DNA from: Tridacna crocea
Lineage: Eukaryota > Mollusca > Bivalvia > Cardiida > Cardiidae
Direction of reading: 5' to 3'
Length of the DNA stretch: 64,000 bases
Assembly (NCBI GenBank): GCA_943736015.1
Contig: OX031070.1
Location: 38,928,173-38,992,172, forward strand
Every line of letters starts with the position of its first letter. Within the stretch, counting starts at the first letter, position 1. The notes under the pieces are model-generated. The model searched no databases. It had not been told where the DNA came from and saw nothing but the letters and a program-made list of their open reading frames with translations. The position numbers were made by a program, and so were the translations under genes. This document shows positions 12,255 through 40,191 of this stretch, piece by piece.

Positions 12255-12483
12255 TTAACCCATGACCACACAATCCTTACTTTTGACACCTCTGAGAAAG
12301 AAGCCTTTAGAAAACATTGTGGGAAAAGGAGAAAATGCTGGTAATCAGCATTTTCTCCTTTTCCCACAATGTTTTCTACCCTTCACATGACAAATTTCAA
12401 ATTTTCAGTCACTTTTATTTTGTCGTCAGCAAATGCTTTCAGTTTGGACCAATCTAAAATATTGTCGTTTGGTGATGAGTTAA
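12255..12483 (-). mobile_element. Family A hairpin MITE, copy 8 (tandem with copy 9)
   Basis: TTAA at both ends and 229 bp long. The hairpin arms are almost perfect around GGTAATC. The right TTAA at 12480-12483 is also the left TTAA of the next copy, so the two lie head to tail with no spacer. Confidence 0.92.
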
Positions 12484-12702
12484 CAAACAATTCCTGCTTT
12501 TTACGACTCTGAGATAGAAGCCTTTTGAAAAGACTGTGGGAAAAAGGAGAAGATGCTGGTAACCAGCATTTTCTCCTTTTTCCACAATGTTTTCTACCCT
12601 GCTGGAATCAAATTCCAATTTTTGAGTTACATTTAATTTGTCGTCTGCAAGTGCTTTCAATTTGGACTGGTTTGAAATTTTCTCGTTTGGGAAAGGGCTA
12701 AT
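12480..12702 (-). mobile_element. Family A hairpin MITE, copy 9 (tandem)
   Basis: Shares its left TTAA with copy 8. The core is GTGGGAAAAAGGAGAAGATG against CATTTTCTCCTTTTTCCACA; both arms have five-base A or T runs instead of four. The right end GTTTGGGAAAGGGCTAA differs from the consensus TTAA by one base. Confidence 0.88.
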
Positions 12703-23036: not shown

Positions 23037-23699
23037 ATCATTTCTCAGTGACAGTTCGAAGGTCCTCTTTTTCTTCTTCACAAATACTACCCGAAGAAAG
23101 TGCTAGTTGTTTCAGTGAACCAATAGTGTTACCATTATGTGCAAAAAAATGCATATGTGCACTTTTGATTGAATATCCACGACAAAAATACATGCGCAGT
23201 GGGATGCGCGCCAACATTTGTCATATGCGCCGTTAAAAAAATACCTTCGATACCACAACGGAAGCCCACCACTGATAGAACAGTTTGAATTACACAATAA
23301 ATTTGTTCTGTCACATTTTCGATTTAGGTGTCTTTCCGCTTCTATCTTTATGAGCACACATTCTGAGCTAAGACAGGGGTTTTTTTTGTGAGCCTTTCTG
23401 GTATTTTGCTTGGACGAATTTGCATTCGCACATTACAGTAATATTAACGTATTGAGCTGTTGATATTAGAATACTAGATCTCATACAGTTCAAAGTTTCT
23501 TTGTAGCGTTATTTCGTACTTTATAAACTCTTCGTTAAAAGCAGCCAAGATCCAAAATATTGCTTGACAGTTGAATCATCCATAGCGTAATTTAACTTAA
23601 TTCAGAAGGATGATCTCACTTTAATAGCTCGCTTAATAACATTTCCCTAGACTCGTTTAATAAAATCTTATCTCAAAAGCCAACTCATGTCAGATCCTA
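23037..23699. other. No supported feature
   Basis: AT-rich spacer. Frames of 81 codons or fewer with no recognisable domain. Confidence 0.4.
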
Positions 23700-23919
23700 T
23701 ATCCCATAAGGCATTTCTATGGCATCTCAAATTGACCCTAAATAACAGCAAGGATGATGCTGTTTCTTATGTGTATATGACACCTTTTGATAGCATAGAA
23801 AACATTGTGGCAAAAGGTGAAATTGCTAGTCACAAGCAATTTCACCTTTTGCCACAATGTTTTCCAAAGGCTCCTACAAGCAATGCGTAGAAATGAGTAT
23901 CTATAGAGTAAAGAGTTAA
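23700..23919 (+). mobile_element. Family A copy 16 with a fully compensated hairpin
   Basis: The right end is AGAGTAAAGAGTTAA. The left outer part is diverged and the left boundary is estimated. The core (23798-23864) has perfect 30-bp arms with a 7-base loop. Three positions differ from the family consensus: GTGGCAAAAGGTGAAATTGC at the left, GCAATTTCACCTTTTGCCAC at the right. All three changes are present on both arms, while the flanks are decayed. Confidence 0.85.
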
Positions 23920-31830: not shown

Positions 31831-32340
31831 CCCTTTGGCTACCGAGTGCGACTCACTGACCTTTTTCGGTCAGTGTAGATCAAGATCAGACTGCACAGAA
31901 CGTGCAGTGTGATCTTGGATCTACACTGTCCGATAAAGAGATATCATTCCTCAAACTATAACTTTCAAATAGCAGTATTTGAATTGTTGCCAGCGAAATC
32001 AACCCTTAGGCTGGTAAACGCGATTCACTGACCTTTTGCGGATAGTGTACATCAAGATCAGACTGTACAGAACTTGCAGTCTGATCTTGGATCTACATTG
32101 TCCGATAAGGATATATTTTTACTGAAAGCACAACTTTGAAATGACATTTTTTGGACTTTTGCCATCGGAATTATCCCTTAGTCTGCTATGTGCGACTCAC
32201 TGATCTTTCGCCGACTATATAGACAAAGATCACAGGACGTGCAGTATGATCTTGAATCTTCACTGTCCAAAAAAAAAAAAAAGACAACATTCCTCAAAAC
32301 ATGACTTTGAAATGGCAATATTTGTGTTTTTCCTCTCGAA
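31831..32340 (+). repeat. Family F satellite, three units of about 170 bp
   Basis: Each unit begins CCCTTWGGCTR or CCCTTAGTCTGC, then GCGAYTCACTGA, then the F hairpin (AGATCAAGATCAGACTGCAC to GTGCAGTGTGATCTTGGATC in unit 1), then TGTCCGATAA and a tail with AACTTTSAAATRRCA. Unit starts are near 31831, 32003 and 32174. Hairpin pairing is best in unit 1 and weakest in unit 3, which also has an A run. Confidence 0.82.
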
Positions 32341-32929: not shown

Positions 32930-33911
32930 AAAGAGCATGGCATATTATATACATGACATATCTACTTCTTAATTCTTCAAGCAAGCGATAGTATCATTAA
33001 ATACAAGATTAACCCGGCTCAATGGCTTTCCTCTCAGTTCGTGAGGTCATTGTGGACGGATTTTAGGCTATCCGGGAAAATGCGAGGGACAAATTAAGGC
33101 GCCCCTTCGGAACGTGCGGATAAATTCCAGGCCAGGCAGAAAATGACATTACTAATATATTCTCCTATCTTAAATCTGTGCTGCTGAATTTATTTTAAGA
33201 CATATAGTTCGGGCTTGCTATTGTCTTGTCATTATCCTGAGACCGGAAGTAGAGGACAATGTACAGCGAAAAAATACACCTCTATCTCTCTCTCTCGGCA
33301 ATGGGGCGGGGCGGGGCCAGGGCCTTTGGTCAAAGTAAACGAGCACACATTTTGTGGAGCTCAACTTTTTACCGTCAATAGGGCTGAAACATACTTCACA
33401 TATGCAAGCTTTAATCACAATTTACATGACGACGCTACGGGTTTGTCCAGTTTACATATCAGACAGAGGTTCATCGATCCTTCGACAGTTTTTTAAGTAT
33501 AATAAATGTTTCACATAATTTCAGGTTGTCTTTTTTCGTTGGAACGATTCGATTGAATTAAAATACTAATTAAAATACTAATTAGAAAGAGTGACACACG
33601 CTGGTATTTCCTCTAAAACGAAACAAATACTAAAATTTTGTTTTAAAAATGAAACGCAAAATTATTTTATCCCTACACTACATCTATATATAGAATGAAC
33701 AATCTCAGTCCTGGAAACCCGTATTGGTATGTTGATAGACGTAGCCCAGGGGTACTAACTGTTTAAGCTATGACAATAAAAGAATGACTGTTATGTTTAC
33801 CCGATATCGAATATAATAATTTTCCTATGGTAATTTATTACTTCAAATCAGTCACTTATTTATCCAATCTTTTATTCGTTCTGTTTTCTTTTCATTTTTT
33901 CTTTATTCAAT
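32930..33911. other. No supported feature; short G-rich spot
   Basis: GGGGCGGGGCGGGGCC at about 33304-33319 is a possible G-quadruplex. A 93-codon frame at 33215-33496 (+) has no recognisable domain. Confidence 0.45.
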
Positions 33912-34201
33912 AAAGAATAGTTTATGAATACGGGCCCCGGGTCGCTTAAGATGCTTTCAGCCTTTCAAAGCCATTGTACCTTTTCTGGCATTGGAGCCTA
34001 TTGGAGACAGAGAGAGAGAGAGAGAGCGAGACAGACAGACAGAGAACGAGTGATACCACTCGTTCTCTGTCTGTCTGTCTGTCTCGCTCTCTCTCTCTCT
34101 CTCTGTCTCCAATAGGCTCCAATGCCAGAAAAGGTACAATGGCTTTGAAAGGCTGAAAGCATCTTAAGCGACCCGGGGCCCGTATTCATAAACTATTCTT
34201 T
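33912..34201. repeat. 290-bp near-perfect palindrome ending in family H termini
   Basis: The left arm begins AAAGAATAGTTTATGAATAC and the right arm ends GTATTCATAAACTATTCTTT. The arms are identical by eye over about 143 bases, including equal runs of nine AG units, except that the right arm has one more GACA unit. The centre is ATAC (34053-34056) between GAGTG and CACTC. The ends are GGGCCCGTATTC-type family H termini. No coding frame; the frames of about 60 codons on both strands are mirror images. Confidence 0.95.
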
Positions 34202-34367
34202 ATAACACTCTTAAATCTTTTTCTTCAGAACTTCATCAATGTGAAAGTAACGAACTTCTGACTGGCTAAACCAGCTGGTTTAGCCAATGAAAAGTTCTGT
34301 CACTACCACAGTTAGAAAGTTAGAAAATGAACATTCTTAAGAATGGTTGGTGAACACGGACACCGGG
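34176..34367 (+). mobile_element. Family H element, copy 4
   Basis: Left end GGGCCCGTATTCATAAAC (shared with the right arm of the palindrome), right end GAATGGTTGGTGAACACGG. The inner pair GGCTAAACCAG and CTGGTTTAGCC is perfect. Confidence 0.85.
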
Positions 34368-36511: not shown

Positions 36512-39500
36512 CTAAGTAAATCTTCTACTTTGACTGATATAAGAATGAACTGCTGCGAATAGTTTTTCGTTATCAGGTTGATCAAGATCTTCATCACCAT
36601 ATAAGATGACTTGAAGAGTAACTCTCGTAATTGTACTTATATCATCATTTAGACTGATTCTTATTTCTCTGTAGAATGGGCATTCAAAGAAGTAATGATG
36701 TGTTGATTCAACAGAGCCGCATCTACAAAGGGGTGACTGGACTATATTTTTCAAATACAAATGCTCATTAAGACAACTACACTTGTTACGTAACCTAGCA
36801 TGTATGATCTGAGTTTTTCTATCTCCAAAGAAATAAAGCTTATTTGGCCTCGGTTTATCAATGTTTAAGCGATATTTAAAGGAAAACAACGTTCCGGCAT
36901 TTTTTGTTTCATCTGATAAACAATTCCAATCATTTATCACTGATGGCAAGAATGAATTTTTGTACAAAGTGGTTCTGCAAGCTATGGTTCGCAAGTTATT
37001 TGGTCTTCGAAGATTGTAAGATGACGACTCTCCAACTGTCTGAGGAACAAGAGCATTAAGATAGTTAGGAGACAGTCCGTTGAACATTTTGTAAAAGAGA
37101 ATCAGTTTGTGTTTTCGCCTCCTTTGGCTTAAAGTTTCCCATCCAGTTTCTTGGTATAAATCACGGATAGCAGTTAGTTTGGTGCAGCCTGTTACTATGC
37201 GAGCCGCTTCATTTTGAACTTTATCCATTTGATCTTTCAGACCCTGAGAAAAGTTGTCCCATACAACATCACCATATTCCAGAATAGGTCTGATAAATGA
37301 AAAGTAAATAGTTTGAAGAGAAAGACGATCGAGACGCGTTTTAAGATGCCGCATGATCCCAATCCTTTTCCAGGCCTTTTCAATAGATTTACTAACGTGA
37401 ATATCCCAAGAACCGTCATTGGAGAGAAAGAATCCCAAATGTTTATGACTGGTAACAGAGGGTATTTCTATATTTGACATAAACAGATCTGGGTGATTTG
37501 GCTTGGAACGTTTACGAGAAATTACTAAAGATTCAGACTTTGATGGATTAAACTTGACCAACCACTTCTGAGCCCACTGATTAATTTTGTCGATATCTGA
37601 TTGTAAAACTCTTCCTACTTCGTCCGGATTGTCTACAATCATTGATAAGCTGGTATCGTCTGCAAACAGGTTAATATTAGCCTGAATATCATCTACTATA
37701 TCATTGATGTAAACTAAAAATAAGAGAGGTCCGAGTATAGAACCTTGGGGGACTCCGGCTTGCACAAGACTTAAAGTTGAGACACCGCCAGGCAAAATAA
37801 CCCTTTGATAACGAGCAGAAAGGTAACTGGAAAACCAAGATAATAACTTCCCACGAATCCCTGCTCTCTTAAGCTTAAAGAGTAAACCGTCATGCCAAAC
37901 TTTGTCAAATGCTTTACTTATATCGAAAAATAAAACTCTGAATTCCAAACCATCATCCAAAGCTTTACAAATATGGTTATAGAGACAAGCTACTTGGTTA
38001 ACAGTTGAGTCACCTGGCATAAAACCAGATTGCCAAGGTGTAAAGAAATCGGTGTCCTTTAGATAGTTGTAAACATGTTTAAATATAATTCTTTCTAAAA
38101 CCTTTTCAATATTACTCAACAGTGAAACGGGCCTATAATTGGAAGGAAGGGATGCATCACCTGATTTATATATTGGACACACATTTGATATTTTCCATGA
38201 TGATGGAACAGAACTTGTATTTAAAGATTGATTAAATAGATCACACAGGTGAGGTGCTAGCTGACCAGCAGCCTCGATAAGAATTCTGTTATTTATGCCG
38301 TCAGGTCCAGATGCCTTACCAAGCTTAAGTGTTTTGAGAACATCTAGTACTTCAGACGGCGTGACATTGATAGAATCTAAAGAATTGTTTGTAAATTCCT
38401 GATTTTCAGCTGGAATGAAACTTAAGGAATCGTCTATACACGACTGGCTGGCAAAGTATGAATTAAGTAAGTTTGCTTTCTCGTCCTCTTTGATAATCAT
38501 ATAGTCATTGGCAGTATCATACAAAGGAGGGATAGATGTTGACGAATGAGGACACATGAGCGACTTTAGAGTTTTCCACCAACCACGCGAAGACAGAGTT
38601 CCAGATTTCAATTGTGAAGCCAACCGTTCGAAATATTGTGCTTTATTTTGTCGGATCAATGCAATGACTTCATTTCTAGCCGACCTAAAATTTGACCAGT
38701 GGCTGACATCGTTTGACTTCTTTGCTTTTCTATATAATCTTTTACGGCGACGTATTTTCTTTTTAATCTCACAGGTCAACCACGGAGGTTCTCTGGGGTT
38801 GACATAAACTTTTTTGCTGGGGATAAACTTACACGCATTTTCTGTAATGACATCCGCTAAACTGTCAGCATAAATGTCAATATTAGAATTGTGTACAGAG
38901 CTCCAATCGAAAGTTGAGAAGTTATGTCTGAGCTGATTATAGTTACCTTGGTCATACTTCCAAATTGTTCGCTGTATATTCTTAACCTTGGGTTTAAGAA
39001 AATTAAAGACACCAAAGACAGGACAGTGATACCGCACTGTAAGATCCAGACAAGGTTCACCAACGCCCGTTGTTAATATTGAGTCTTTATTTGTAACAAA
39101 TAGAAGATCAATTATAGAGTGAGAATTTTCTGTAAAATGTGTTGGTTCGTCTATACATTGAATCATATTAAATTGGTTACAGAGGGCCTCTACTTTACGA
39201 AACTGGGTTTGATTCATTATGTTTAAGTTAAAGTCCCCTGTAATAATAACATCAGAGATATTTGAATCAATAGCAAGACCAATAGAGTCCTCTATCAGTG
39301 AGGTGTAGACTGAATCAGAGGTTGGCGGTCTATAGAATACCCCATACAGGATATTCCTGTTATTACTAGACTTAATCTGAATCCAAATACATTCAAGGCG
39401 ATTAAGTTCCAGATCGTGCCTTCGGATGTAAGACAAATTATTCTTGACATATAGAATAACTCCTCCGTATCTATTATCAGCTCGATCTTTACGTTCGGGT

Positions 39501-39994
39501 GGATGGAAAGACGGAAAAAGTAATTCATTTGAAGAAACTTCATTATGTAACCAAGTCTCAGAAAAAGACATAATATCAAAATATGAGAACTCAGCAATCA
39601 AAGTATCAAGCTTATTTGCGATACTTTGGACATTATAATGGATAGTTGAAAGATGATTAGGAAGGTTGAGAAAATTGTAGAGATCAAATGAACTAGAACA
39701 ACTATATGAGCTCTCGCTAGGTGGTGGACCAGGATTCGGATGGACATCGCCTGATTTTAATATCAAAAGTATAATCACGACTGACGAAGGCAACAAACAA
39801 GAAAAAGTACAGTAAAACATCAGCCTGGAAAATTCTACATTCTTTTTACAACGATTGCTGGTCACTAAGCGCTTCGGGTTCAAGTGTATTATGTATCCAG
39901 TCAAAGTTTCTGACTGTTTAATGTTTGTGAAAACTGAGTATGAAAGAACATTACTACCTAATAATGGGAATAGAAAAAATAGCGTAATAGTCAT
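36512..39994 (-). CDS. LINE polyprotein: 2A-like leader, endonuclease, reverse transcriptase
   Basis: 1160 codons, no internal stop or frameshift, ending in TAG. Residues 1-80 form a leader with a hydrophobic stretch (about 58-79) directly before the 2A-like SGDVHPNPGP (81-90). The APE-type endonuclease is at about 115-335: Asn121, Glu146 in SETWL, YRPP (221-224), GDFN (253-256), SIIDLLF (293-299) and His323. The usual SDH triplet reads RYH here. The reverse transcriptase is at about 600-860: YRPVSLLSN (620), FFDISKAFD with Asp691, GVPQGSILGP (747-756) and FADD (777-780). A C-terminal Cys/His cluster (CSC, CRCG, HHYFFEC; 1072-1105) may bind nucleic acid. In this group the enzyme nicks the target and copies the element RNA there. 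The start is the first ATG after an open frame of about 65 codons without ATG. The intact frame suggests a recent insertion. Confidence 0.95.
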   Translation of the reverse strand: MTITLFFLFPLLGSNVLSYSVFTNIKQSETLTGYIIHLNPKRLVTSNRCKKNVEFSRLMFYCTFSCLLPSSVVIILLILKSGDVHPNPGPPPSESSYSCSSSFDLYNFLNLPNHLSTIHYNVQSIANKLDTLIAEFSYFDIMSFSETWLHNEVSSNELLFPSFHPPERKDRADNRYGGVILYVKNNLSYIRRHDLELNRLECIWIQIKSSNNRNILYGVFYRPPTSDSVYTSLIEDSIGLAIDSNISDVIITGDFNLNIMNQTQFRKVEALCNQFNMIQCIDEPTHFTENSHSIIDLLFVTNKDSILTTGVGEPCLDLTVRYHCPVFGVFNFLKPKVKNIQRTIWKYDQGNYNQLRHNFSTFDWSSVHNSNIDIYADSLADVITENACKFIPSKKVYVNPREPPWLTCEIKKKIRRRKRLYRKAKKSNDVSHWSNFRSARNEVIALIRQNKAQYFERLASQLKSGTLSSRGWWKTLKSLMCPHSSTSIPPLYDTANDYMIIKEDEKANLLNSYFASQSCIDDSLSFIPAENQEFTNNSLDSINVTPSEVLDVLKTLKLGKASGPDGINNRILIEAAGQLAPHLCDLFNQSLNTSSVPSSWKISNVCPIYKSGDASLPSNYRPVSLLSNIEKVLERIIFKHVYNYLKDTDFFTPWQSGFMPGDSTVNQVACLYNHICKALDDGLEFRVLFFDISKAFDKVWHDGLLFKLKRAGIRGKLLSWFSSYLSARYQRVILPGGVSTLSLVQAGVPQGSILGPLLFLVYINDIVDDIQANINLFADDTSLSMIVDNPDEVGRVLQSDIDKINQWAQKWLVKFNPSKSESLVISRKRSKPNHPDLFMSNIEIPSVTSHKHLGFFLSNDGSWDIHVSKSIEKAWKRIGIMRHLKTRLDRLSLQTIYFSFIRPILEYGDVVWDNFSQGLKDQMDKVQNEAARIVTGCTKLTAIRDLYQETGWETLSQRRRKHKLILFYKMFNGLSPNYLNALVPQTVGESSSYNLRRPNNLRTIACRTTLYKNSFLPSVINDWNCLSDETKNAGTLFSFKYRLNIDKPRPNKLYFFGDRKTQIIHARLRNKCSCLNEHLYLKNIVQSPLCRCGSVESTHHYFFECPFYREIRISLNDDISTITRVTLQVILYGDEDLDQPDNEKLFAAVHSYISQSRRFT
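39725..39754 (-). other. 2A-like ribosome-skipping motif, residues 81-90
   Basis: Encodes SGDVHPNPGP after the hydrophobic run VVIILLILK. The 2A core is D(V/I)ExNPGP; here the Glu is His, while the NPGP tail and the Asp-Val are kept. APE-type non-LTR elements with 2A sequences at this position are known from sea urchins and molluscs. Skipping would release the 89-residue leader and start the rest with Pro90. Whether the His form works cannot be told from sequence. Confidence 0.75.
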
Positions 39995-40191
39995 GTGGAA
40001 GTGAAGAAGTGAACAGTGTGTTGGCTGGCTACAAGTACATGGCCAACTTTATCATGCAAATCAAACCCGGTAACTGTTATTTGACCGCTATGTAAGCCAA
40101 TTAAATTATGAGAGTTTGATCCCTTTTGGCCGTGAAATCGATCACATATGAATTGATATATTGACTGGCGATCTCTGCAAACCCTTTGCAC
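39991..40191 (-). other. Short upstream frame overlapping the LINE start (ATGA)
   Basis: A 66-codon frame ends with TGA that overlaps the ATG of the large ORF as ATGA. It has no recognisable domain. It could be chance, a 5' untranslated uORF or a remnant ORF1. The main frame is also open back to a TAA near 40190. Confidence 0.25.

Follow-up and report, generated by a model that had tools for sequence, protein, structure and literature searches.

The hairpin at positions 23798–23864 of the window, by which we mean the whole 64,000-nt stretch of Tridacna crocea DNA analysed here, carries three substitutions that are mirrored on both of its arms. In this copy (copy 16) they were inherited, and the paired changes in the wider family are best explained by occasional copying of one hairpin arm onto the other; to this combined reading we give a probability of roughly three in four. 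Mirrored changes have two sources, namely descent, for copy 16, for the copies with mirrored T8C and for subfamily A2, and, to judge by A18C, the one variant that was fully controlled, recurrent arm-to-arm copying. At the A18C site, recurrent copying in individual copies looks real and amounts to about 2% of the changes.

Copy 16 and its transposable element

On the forward strand, the left arm of copy 16 spans 23798–23827, its 7-nt loop 23828–23834 and the right arm 23835–23864, with zero mismatches across 30 bp of pairing. Folded as DNA, copy 16 reaches −34.6 kcal/mol, compared with −7.43 ± 1.84 kcal/mol for shuffles (z −14.8). Differences were read against the arm (A1, 33 nt) that is most frequent among the family members of the window. 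Relative to it, arm positions 14 (G>C), 21 (A>T) and 26 (A>T) are changed complementarily on both arms, at 23811, 23818 and 23823 on the left and at their partners 23851, 23844 and 23839 on the right. Both arms also differ from A1 at position 31, but without pairing. The first-pass annotation had described perfect 30-bp arms and three departures from the family consensus, each mirrored on the other arm, and both descriptions hold. Its view that the flanks are decayed does not, as those of copy 16 agree with the consensus of a distinct subfamily, A2, at 100 of 107 positions (left) and 53 of 55 (right), and its hairpin does so at 65 of 67. Wear is seen at the outer left terminus, where the first 13 bases hold four of the seven left-flank mismatches together with one inserted base. 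A search against Rfam gave nothing at gathering score, and the arm was not found in scans of viral and prokaryote contigs.

The A2 element is a short non-autonomous DNA transposon (MITE) with TTAA ends, and the hairpin is its central palindrome. Alignment to the A2 consensus places the whole of this copy at 23690–23919 (+ strand), with the left flank at 23690–23797 and the right flank at 23865–23919; the left end is worn and the right end reads ...GTAAAGAGTTAA, closing with TTAA. From TTAA to TTAA, an A2 element measures about 229 bp with the hairpin at its centre. Terminal inverted repeats are present, the consensus ends being TTAACCCTTTAC ... GTAAAGGGTTAA. The A2 boundaries are sharp at TTAA among the 17 loci aligned out of 30 fetched; a strand filter left out the other 13, and the later flank typing drew on the full set of loci. 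The element is without coding capacity, with no stop-to-stop frame of at least 120 aa overlapping 23690–23919. In a check of the element ends, for which alone the loci L051–L060 were used, both ends were present in 54 of 59 A2 hits and in 147 of 510 A1 hits, and in these 147 A1 and 54 A2 copies direct repeats directly outside the TTAA ends showed no excess over chance. This is consistent with, and no proof of, a piggyBac-type duplication of the TTAA target; the elements were probably mobilised by a piggyBac-type transposase.

In 200 kb there were 145 hairpin hits, 109 of them full, from which we estimate about 7 × 10^5 hairpins in the 1.05-Gb genome of 31 contigs that contains the window, a rough figure because the 20 sampled stretches range from 0 to 21 hits and come from five contigs. 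Copy density is very uneven, with 20–21 hairpin hits per 10 kb in L038 and L047 and 0 in L035, L036 and L048. Two A1 copies lie head to tail at 12290–12690 of the window, with about 218 bp between them. Other repeats of the window include an inverted repeat at 33910–34203, whose 134-nt arms are 100% complementary and 26 nt apart, a far longer and cleaner structure than the MITE hairpins, and 172-bp units at 31848–32268, 2.5 in tandem, which contain a different palindrome. The minus strand holds an open stop-to-stop frame of 1178 aa at 36512–40048. Its homologues carry PF00078, PF14529 and PF03372, from which domains we take it to be a non-LTR retrotransposon; the stretch DVHPNPGP, which lies among the first 110 residues of the frame, looks similar to a 2A peptide. 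Some hits of this protein are labelled as MAGs of Candidatus Thiodiazotropha, no more than a hint at a bivalve host.

Inheritance of the three changes within subfamily A2

A genome search with 99 nt (hairpin plus flanks) returned, out of 537 candidates, 40 scored places of 96–100% identity, copy 16 included. By their flanks we typed 251 full hairpins, taken from the window, from 20 evenly spaced stretches of 10 kb on contigs C1 to C5 only, and from 30 loci of the 99-nt search. Typing was restricted to hits that cover nearly the whole hairpin, which in the window and the 20 stretches were 140 of 186. Of the 44 rows typed as strong A2, which represent 43 distinct copies since one was entered twice, 43 carry C, T and T at positions 14, 21 and 26 on both arms, and the exception has a gap. 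None of the 204 A1 rows shows all three mirrored changes. It follows that those of copy 16 were inherited, and that copy 16 is an ordinary A2 member. In the sample unselected for similarity (window plus 200 kb), 10 of the 140 full hairpins, one of them copy 16, are strong A2, and the subfamily is therefore large. The first-pass annotation had proposed arm-to-arm copying or selection on a folded molecule as the cause of the mirrored changes in copy 16, and had named a large subfamily with exactly these three changes as what would speak against this. A2 is such a subfamily, and for copy 16 itself neither cause is supported.

Partial forms of the A2 hairpin were also found. Position 26 is mirrored without positions 14 and 21 in L017_62 and L022_1866, which have other flanks, and in L043_9121, whose flanks are A1-like. 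In all three, position 31 is mirrored as well, as C in L022_1866 and L043_9121 and as T in L017_62, and L043_9121 additionally has a mirrored 8C. Within A2, C stands at position 31 on one arm or both in 30 of the 44 rows. These partial forms suggest that the hairpin was altered stepwise between subfamilies while remaining paired. Arm-to-arm copying may have acted in the lineage that founded A2, and either this process or selection acting on the hairpin of active elements may have kept the A2 arms matched during their evolution.

Paired changes in the wider family

The first-pass annotation had further suggested that, across the family, paired substitutions should be compared with single-arm rates. 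For the family, this comparison comes out in favour of paired changes. A hairpin-selected A1 set from the window plus 200 kb (72 of 81 copies, after removal of the T8C and position-26 groups) held 15 mirrored changes in register, while sliding the arms by 1–8 positions gave 2.4 on average and 5.2 at most. The excess was weaker in a flank-selected set (88 of 97 copies), with 20 mirrored changes against a mean of 9.2 and a maximum of 14.4 in slid registers, and within A2 (43 rows) no clear excess was seen (3 against 1.3 expected). In 73 of 129 A1 copies, 25 mirrored changes were observed against 4.3 in an arm shuffle, nine of the 25 being T8C. Among rare A1 variants with at most two carriers, one mirrored copy stands against 29 left-arm and 31 right-arm changes. 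Because small unresolved subfamilies could produce such a sample excess, a genome-wide count was made, and there, too, paired changes exceeded the single-arm expectation.

For this count the variant A18C was chosen arbitrarily, before any A18C counts were known, and it is the variant for which mirrored, single-arm, off-register and flank counts were obtained together. Perfect arms carrying A18C number 673. In the inner 35-nt hairpin, 23 copies have A18C mirrored and 1,047 have it on a single arm, alongside about 143,000 unchanged inner hairpins (extrapolated from 36 in 264 kb). By chance, mirrored A18C would be expected in about 1.9 copies. The mirrored share, (23 − 1.9) of the 1,070 inner hairpins that bear A18C, is hence about 2%. 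As an off-register control we counted 18C on one arm with 17C on the other, in both configurations, and found 1 copy where 4.2 were expected; this expectation is based on A17C, which with 1,138 single-arm copies is as common as A18C. Further variants were counted without regard to the kinship of their carriers, and these raw counts gave mirrored T9A in 59 full-length hairpins, compared with 408 in which it is confined to the arm 5′ of a loop read as T, and mirrored A24T in 7 copies genome-wide.

Parsimony on a flank tree gave 23 mirrored doubles, 37 non-mirrored doubles, 354 singles that do not restore pairing and 17 that do. We set it aside as proof, since the tree is shallow, since parsimony hides sibling clades, and since the non-mirrored doubles outnumber the mirrored ones, a pattern that misaligned old copies would produce. 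The hairpin is less diverged than the flanks (0.050 versus 0.094 and 0.119 in the flank-selected set), which was not counted because subfamily structure or putative CpG decay in the flanks may explain it. Among the 204 A1 rows, 120 are free of gaps and insertions, and in these the central loop base, usually T in element orientation, is T in 103, A in 13, C in 3 and G in 1, and its being A in 13 of 120 is as expected if the spacer is occasionally inverted. Mirrored changes accompany the loop A in 8 of 13 copies and the loop T in 15 of 103; the association weakens on stratification by divergence, and loop inversion was dropped as a strong signature of copying because copy age confounds it. Neighbouring changes that may have been mirrored at once occur in L047_3642 (9C, 10A) and L038_7296 (14T, 15G), and L065 has four mirrored changes.

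Arm-to-arm copying among the possible sources

Compensatory change under selection for a folded hairpin, be it a transposase-binding palindrome, a cruciform or an RNA in active lineages, is the most serious alternative, and it is compatible with arm-to-arm copying; as the explanation of the paired changes we consider it rather doubtful. The consensus hairpins of the subfamilies remain paired despite divergence of their flanks. When the A1 and A2 consensus flanks are aligned, 56 of 111 columns agree on the left and 34 of 56 on the right (z 2.8 and 5.3, respectively, against shuffles). It would also suit such selection that piggyBac-type transposases bind palindromic end motifs via their cysteine-rich domains (PMC11707139). 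Selection is, however, powerless on immobile and presumably dead copies, where the A18C excess occurs, and neither binding nor transcription of the hairpin found support in this analysis. Copies presumed dead are free of selection for pairing, so that in them the mirrored changes are better accounted for by a mutational mechanism.

It is less likely still, and on the whole improbable, that every mirrored change was inherited from a few master copies and that no process acted on individual copies. Descent does account for copy 16, agrees with the lack of a clear mirrored excess inside A2, and holds for T8C. The 14 copies with mirrored T8C, which served as a positive control, have a mean flank distance of 0.161, a tightness reached by none of 300 random subsets, and for every one of them the nearest flank neighbour is a further T8C-mirrored copy, two of the 14 forming a separate pair. 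Mirrored T8C was hence ruled out as evidence of conversion. In contrast, the A18C-mirrored copies belong to different flank subfamilies. Of the 23 we fetched 16, and the left flank could be used in 13 of them; these 13 show a mean flank distance of 0.341, compared with 0.263 in random A1 subsets, and the nearest flank neighbour was another A18C-mirrored copy in one of the 13 (distance 0.28). Judged from these flanks, the fetched copies are not siblings. Masters, too, must somehow become mirrored.

Hairpins are difficult sequencing templates, and errors in sequencing or assembly might have copied arm onto arm in the data. We regard such an artefact as very unlikely. The mismatch was retained in the 1,047 single-arm A18C copies, and from this it follows that no wholesale correction took place in the data, an argument that bears on frequent rather than rare artefacts. 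Chance double hits concentrated in old copies are the least probable source, for mirrored A18C exceeds its expectation more than tenfold and the off-register doubles fall short of theirs, even if divergence is higher in the A18C-mirrored copies than in the reference set, a set that was filtered for good matches and hence looks younger. The 23 copies may include some chance double hits, but few, judging by the off-register control.

Taken together, the A18C excess, the few off-register doubles and the non-sibling flanks make arm-to-arm copying a better general mechanism than selection for the fold, which is needless for dead copies and possible in active lineages. Replication or repair would encounter an extruded hairpin, one arm would then template the other, and a point change on one arm would thereby be either erased or mirrored. 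The enzymatic step may be a template switch or mismatch repair of the hairpin; by the bases left behind, polymerase template switching would look no different from such repair or from gene conversion.

Template switching between the arms of inverted repeats is already known (PMC8604942, PMC8794818). In short inverted repeats of yeast it leads to arm homogenization and spacer inversion (PMC8604942). There, as in our family, a change on one arm is copied complementarily to the other, and spacer inversion and multi-base changes are described as well; unlike the yeast repeats, which were followed as single loci along strain trees, about 10^5 dispersed copies of one genome are read statistically here. 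Yeast strains deficient in Rad27 or RNase H2 are likewise reported to show template-switch mutations at inverted repeats (PMC5677150, PMC3820800). Template switching was also reported to create and maintain RNA hairpins (PMC8794818), and the likeness lies in paired stem substitutions with a mutational rather than selective source; that work treats RNA genes, and the word stem "transpos" is absent from its main text. Closer in kind is DINE-1, an abundant short element of Drosophila whose stem-loop differs between species with both sides of the hairpin changing together (PMC2374699). Its stem comprises 7–11 nt near the 3′ end and the change is between species, whereas the palindrome described here is central, has 30 bp and changes between copies of one genome. 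Conversion between palindrome arms has furthermore been described in Caenorhabditis (PMC1803023), on the human Y chromosome (cited in PMC1803023) and in mitochondria of Nematomorpha (PMC6649704). In these cases arms likewise evolve in concert, and gene conversion or template switching was proposed; each concerns single palindromes at given loci, in part with far longer arms, and not a dispersed transposon family. A search of open-licence literature, at the level of titles and the beginnings of abstracts, found no description of arm-to-arm copying inside MITEs or palindromic transposons.

The hairpin of copy 16 is itself a case of ordinary inheritance, and the copying process is a known one; what is useful is a reporter that nature offers in about 10^5 copies. 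Paired changes in stems are usually taken as proof of selection for the fold. Dispersed transposon copies that are presumably dead allow selection to be told apart from a mutational origin, and here they are numerous enough for the rate of copying to be measured by position, base and loop state within one genome. We think the chances about even that this one palindromic MITE superfamily acts as a natural germline reporter of arm-to-arm copying, mirroring some 2% of A18C changes, and that the same process lets the hairpin drift between subfamilies, its pairing kept while the flanks turn over.
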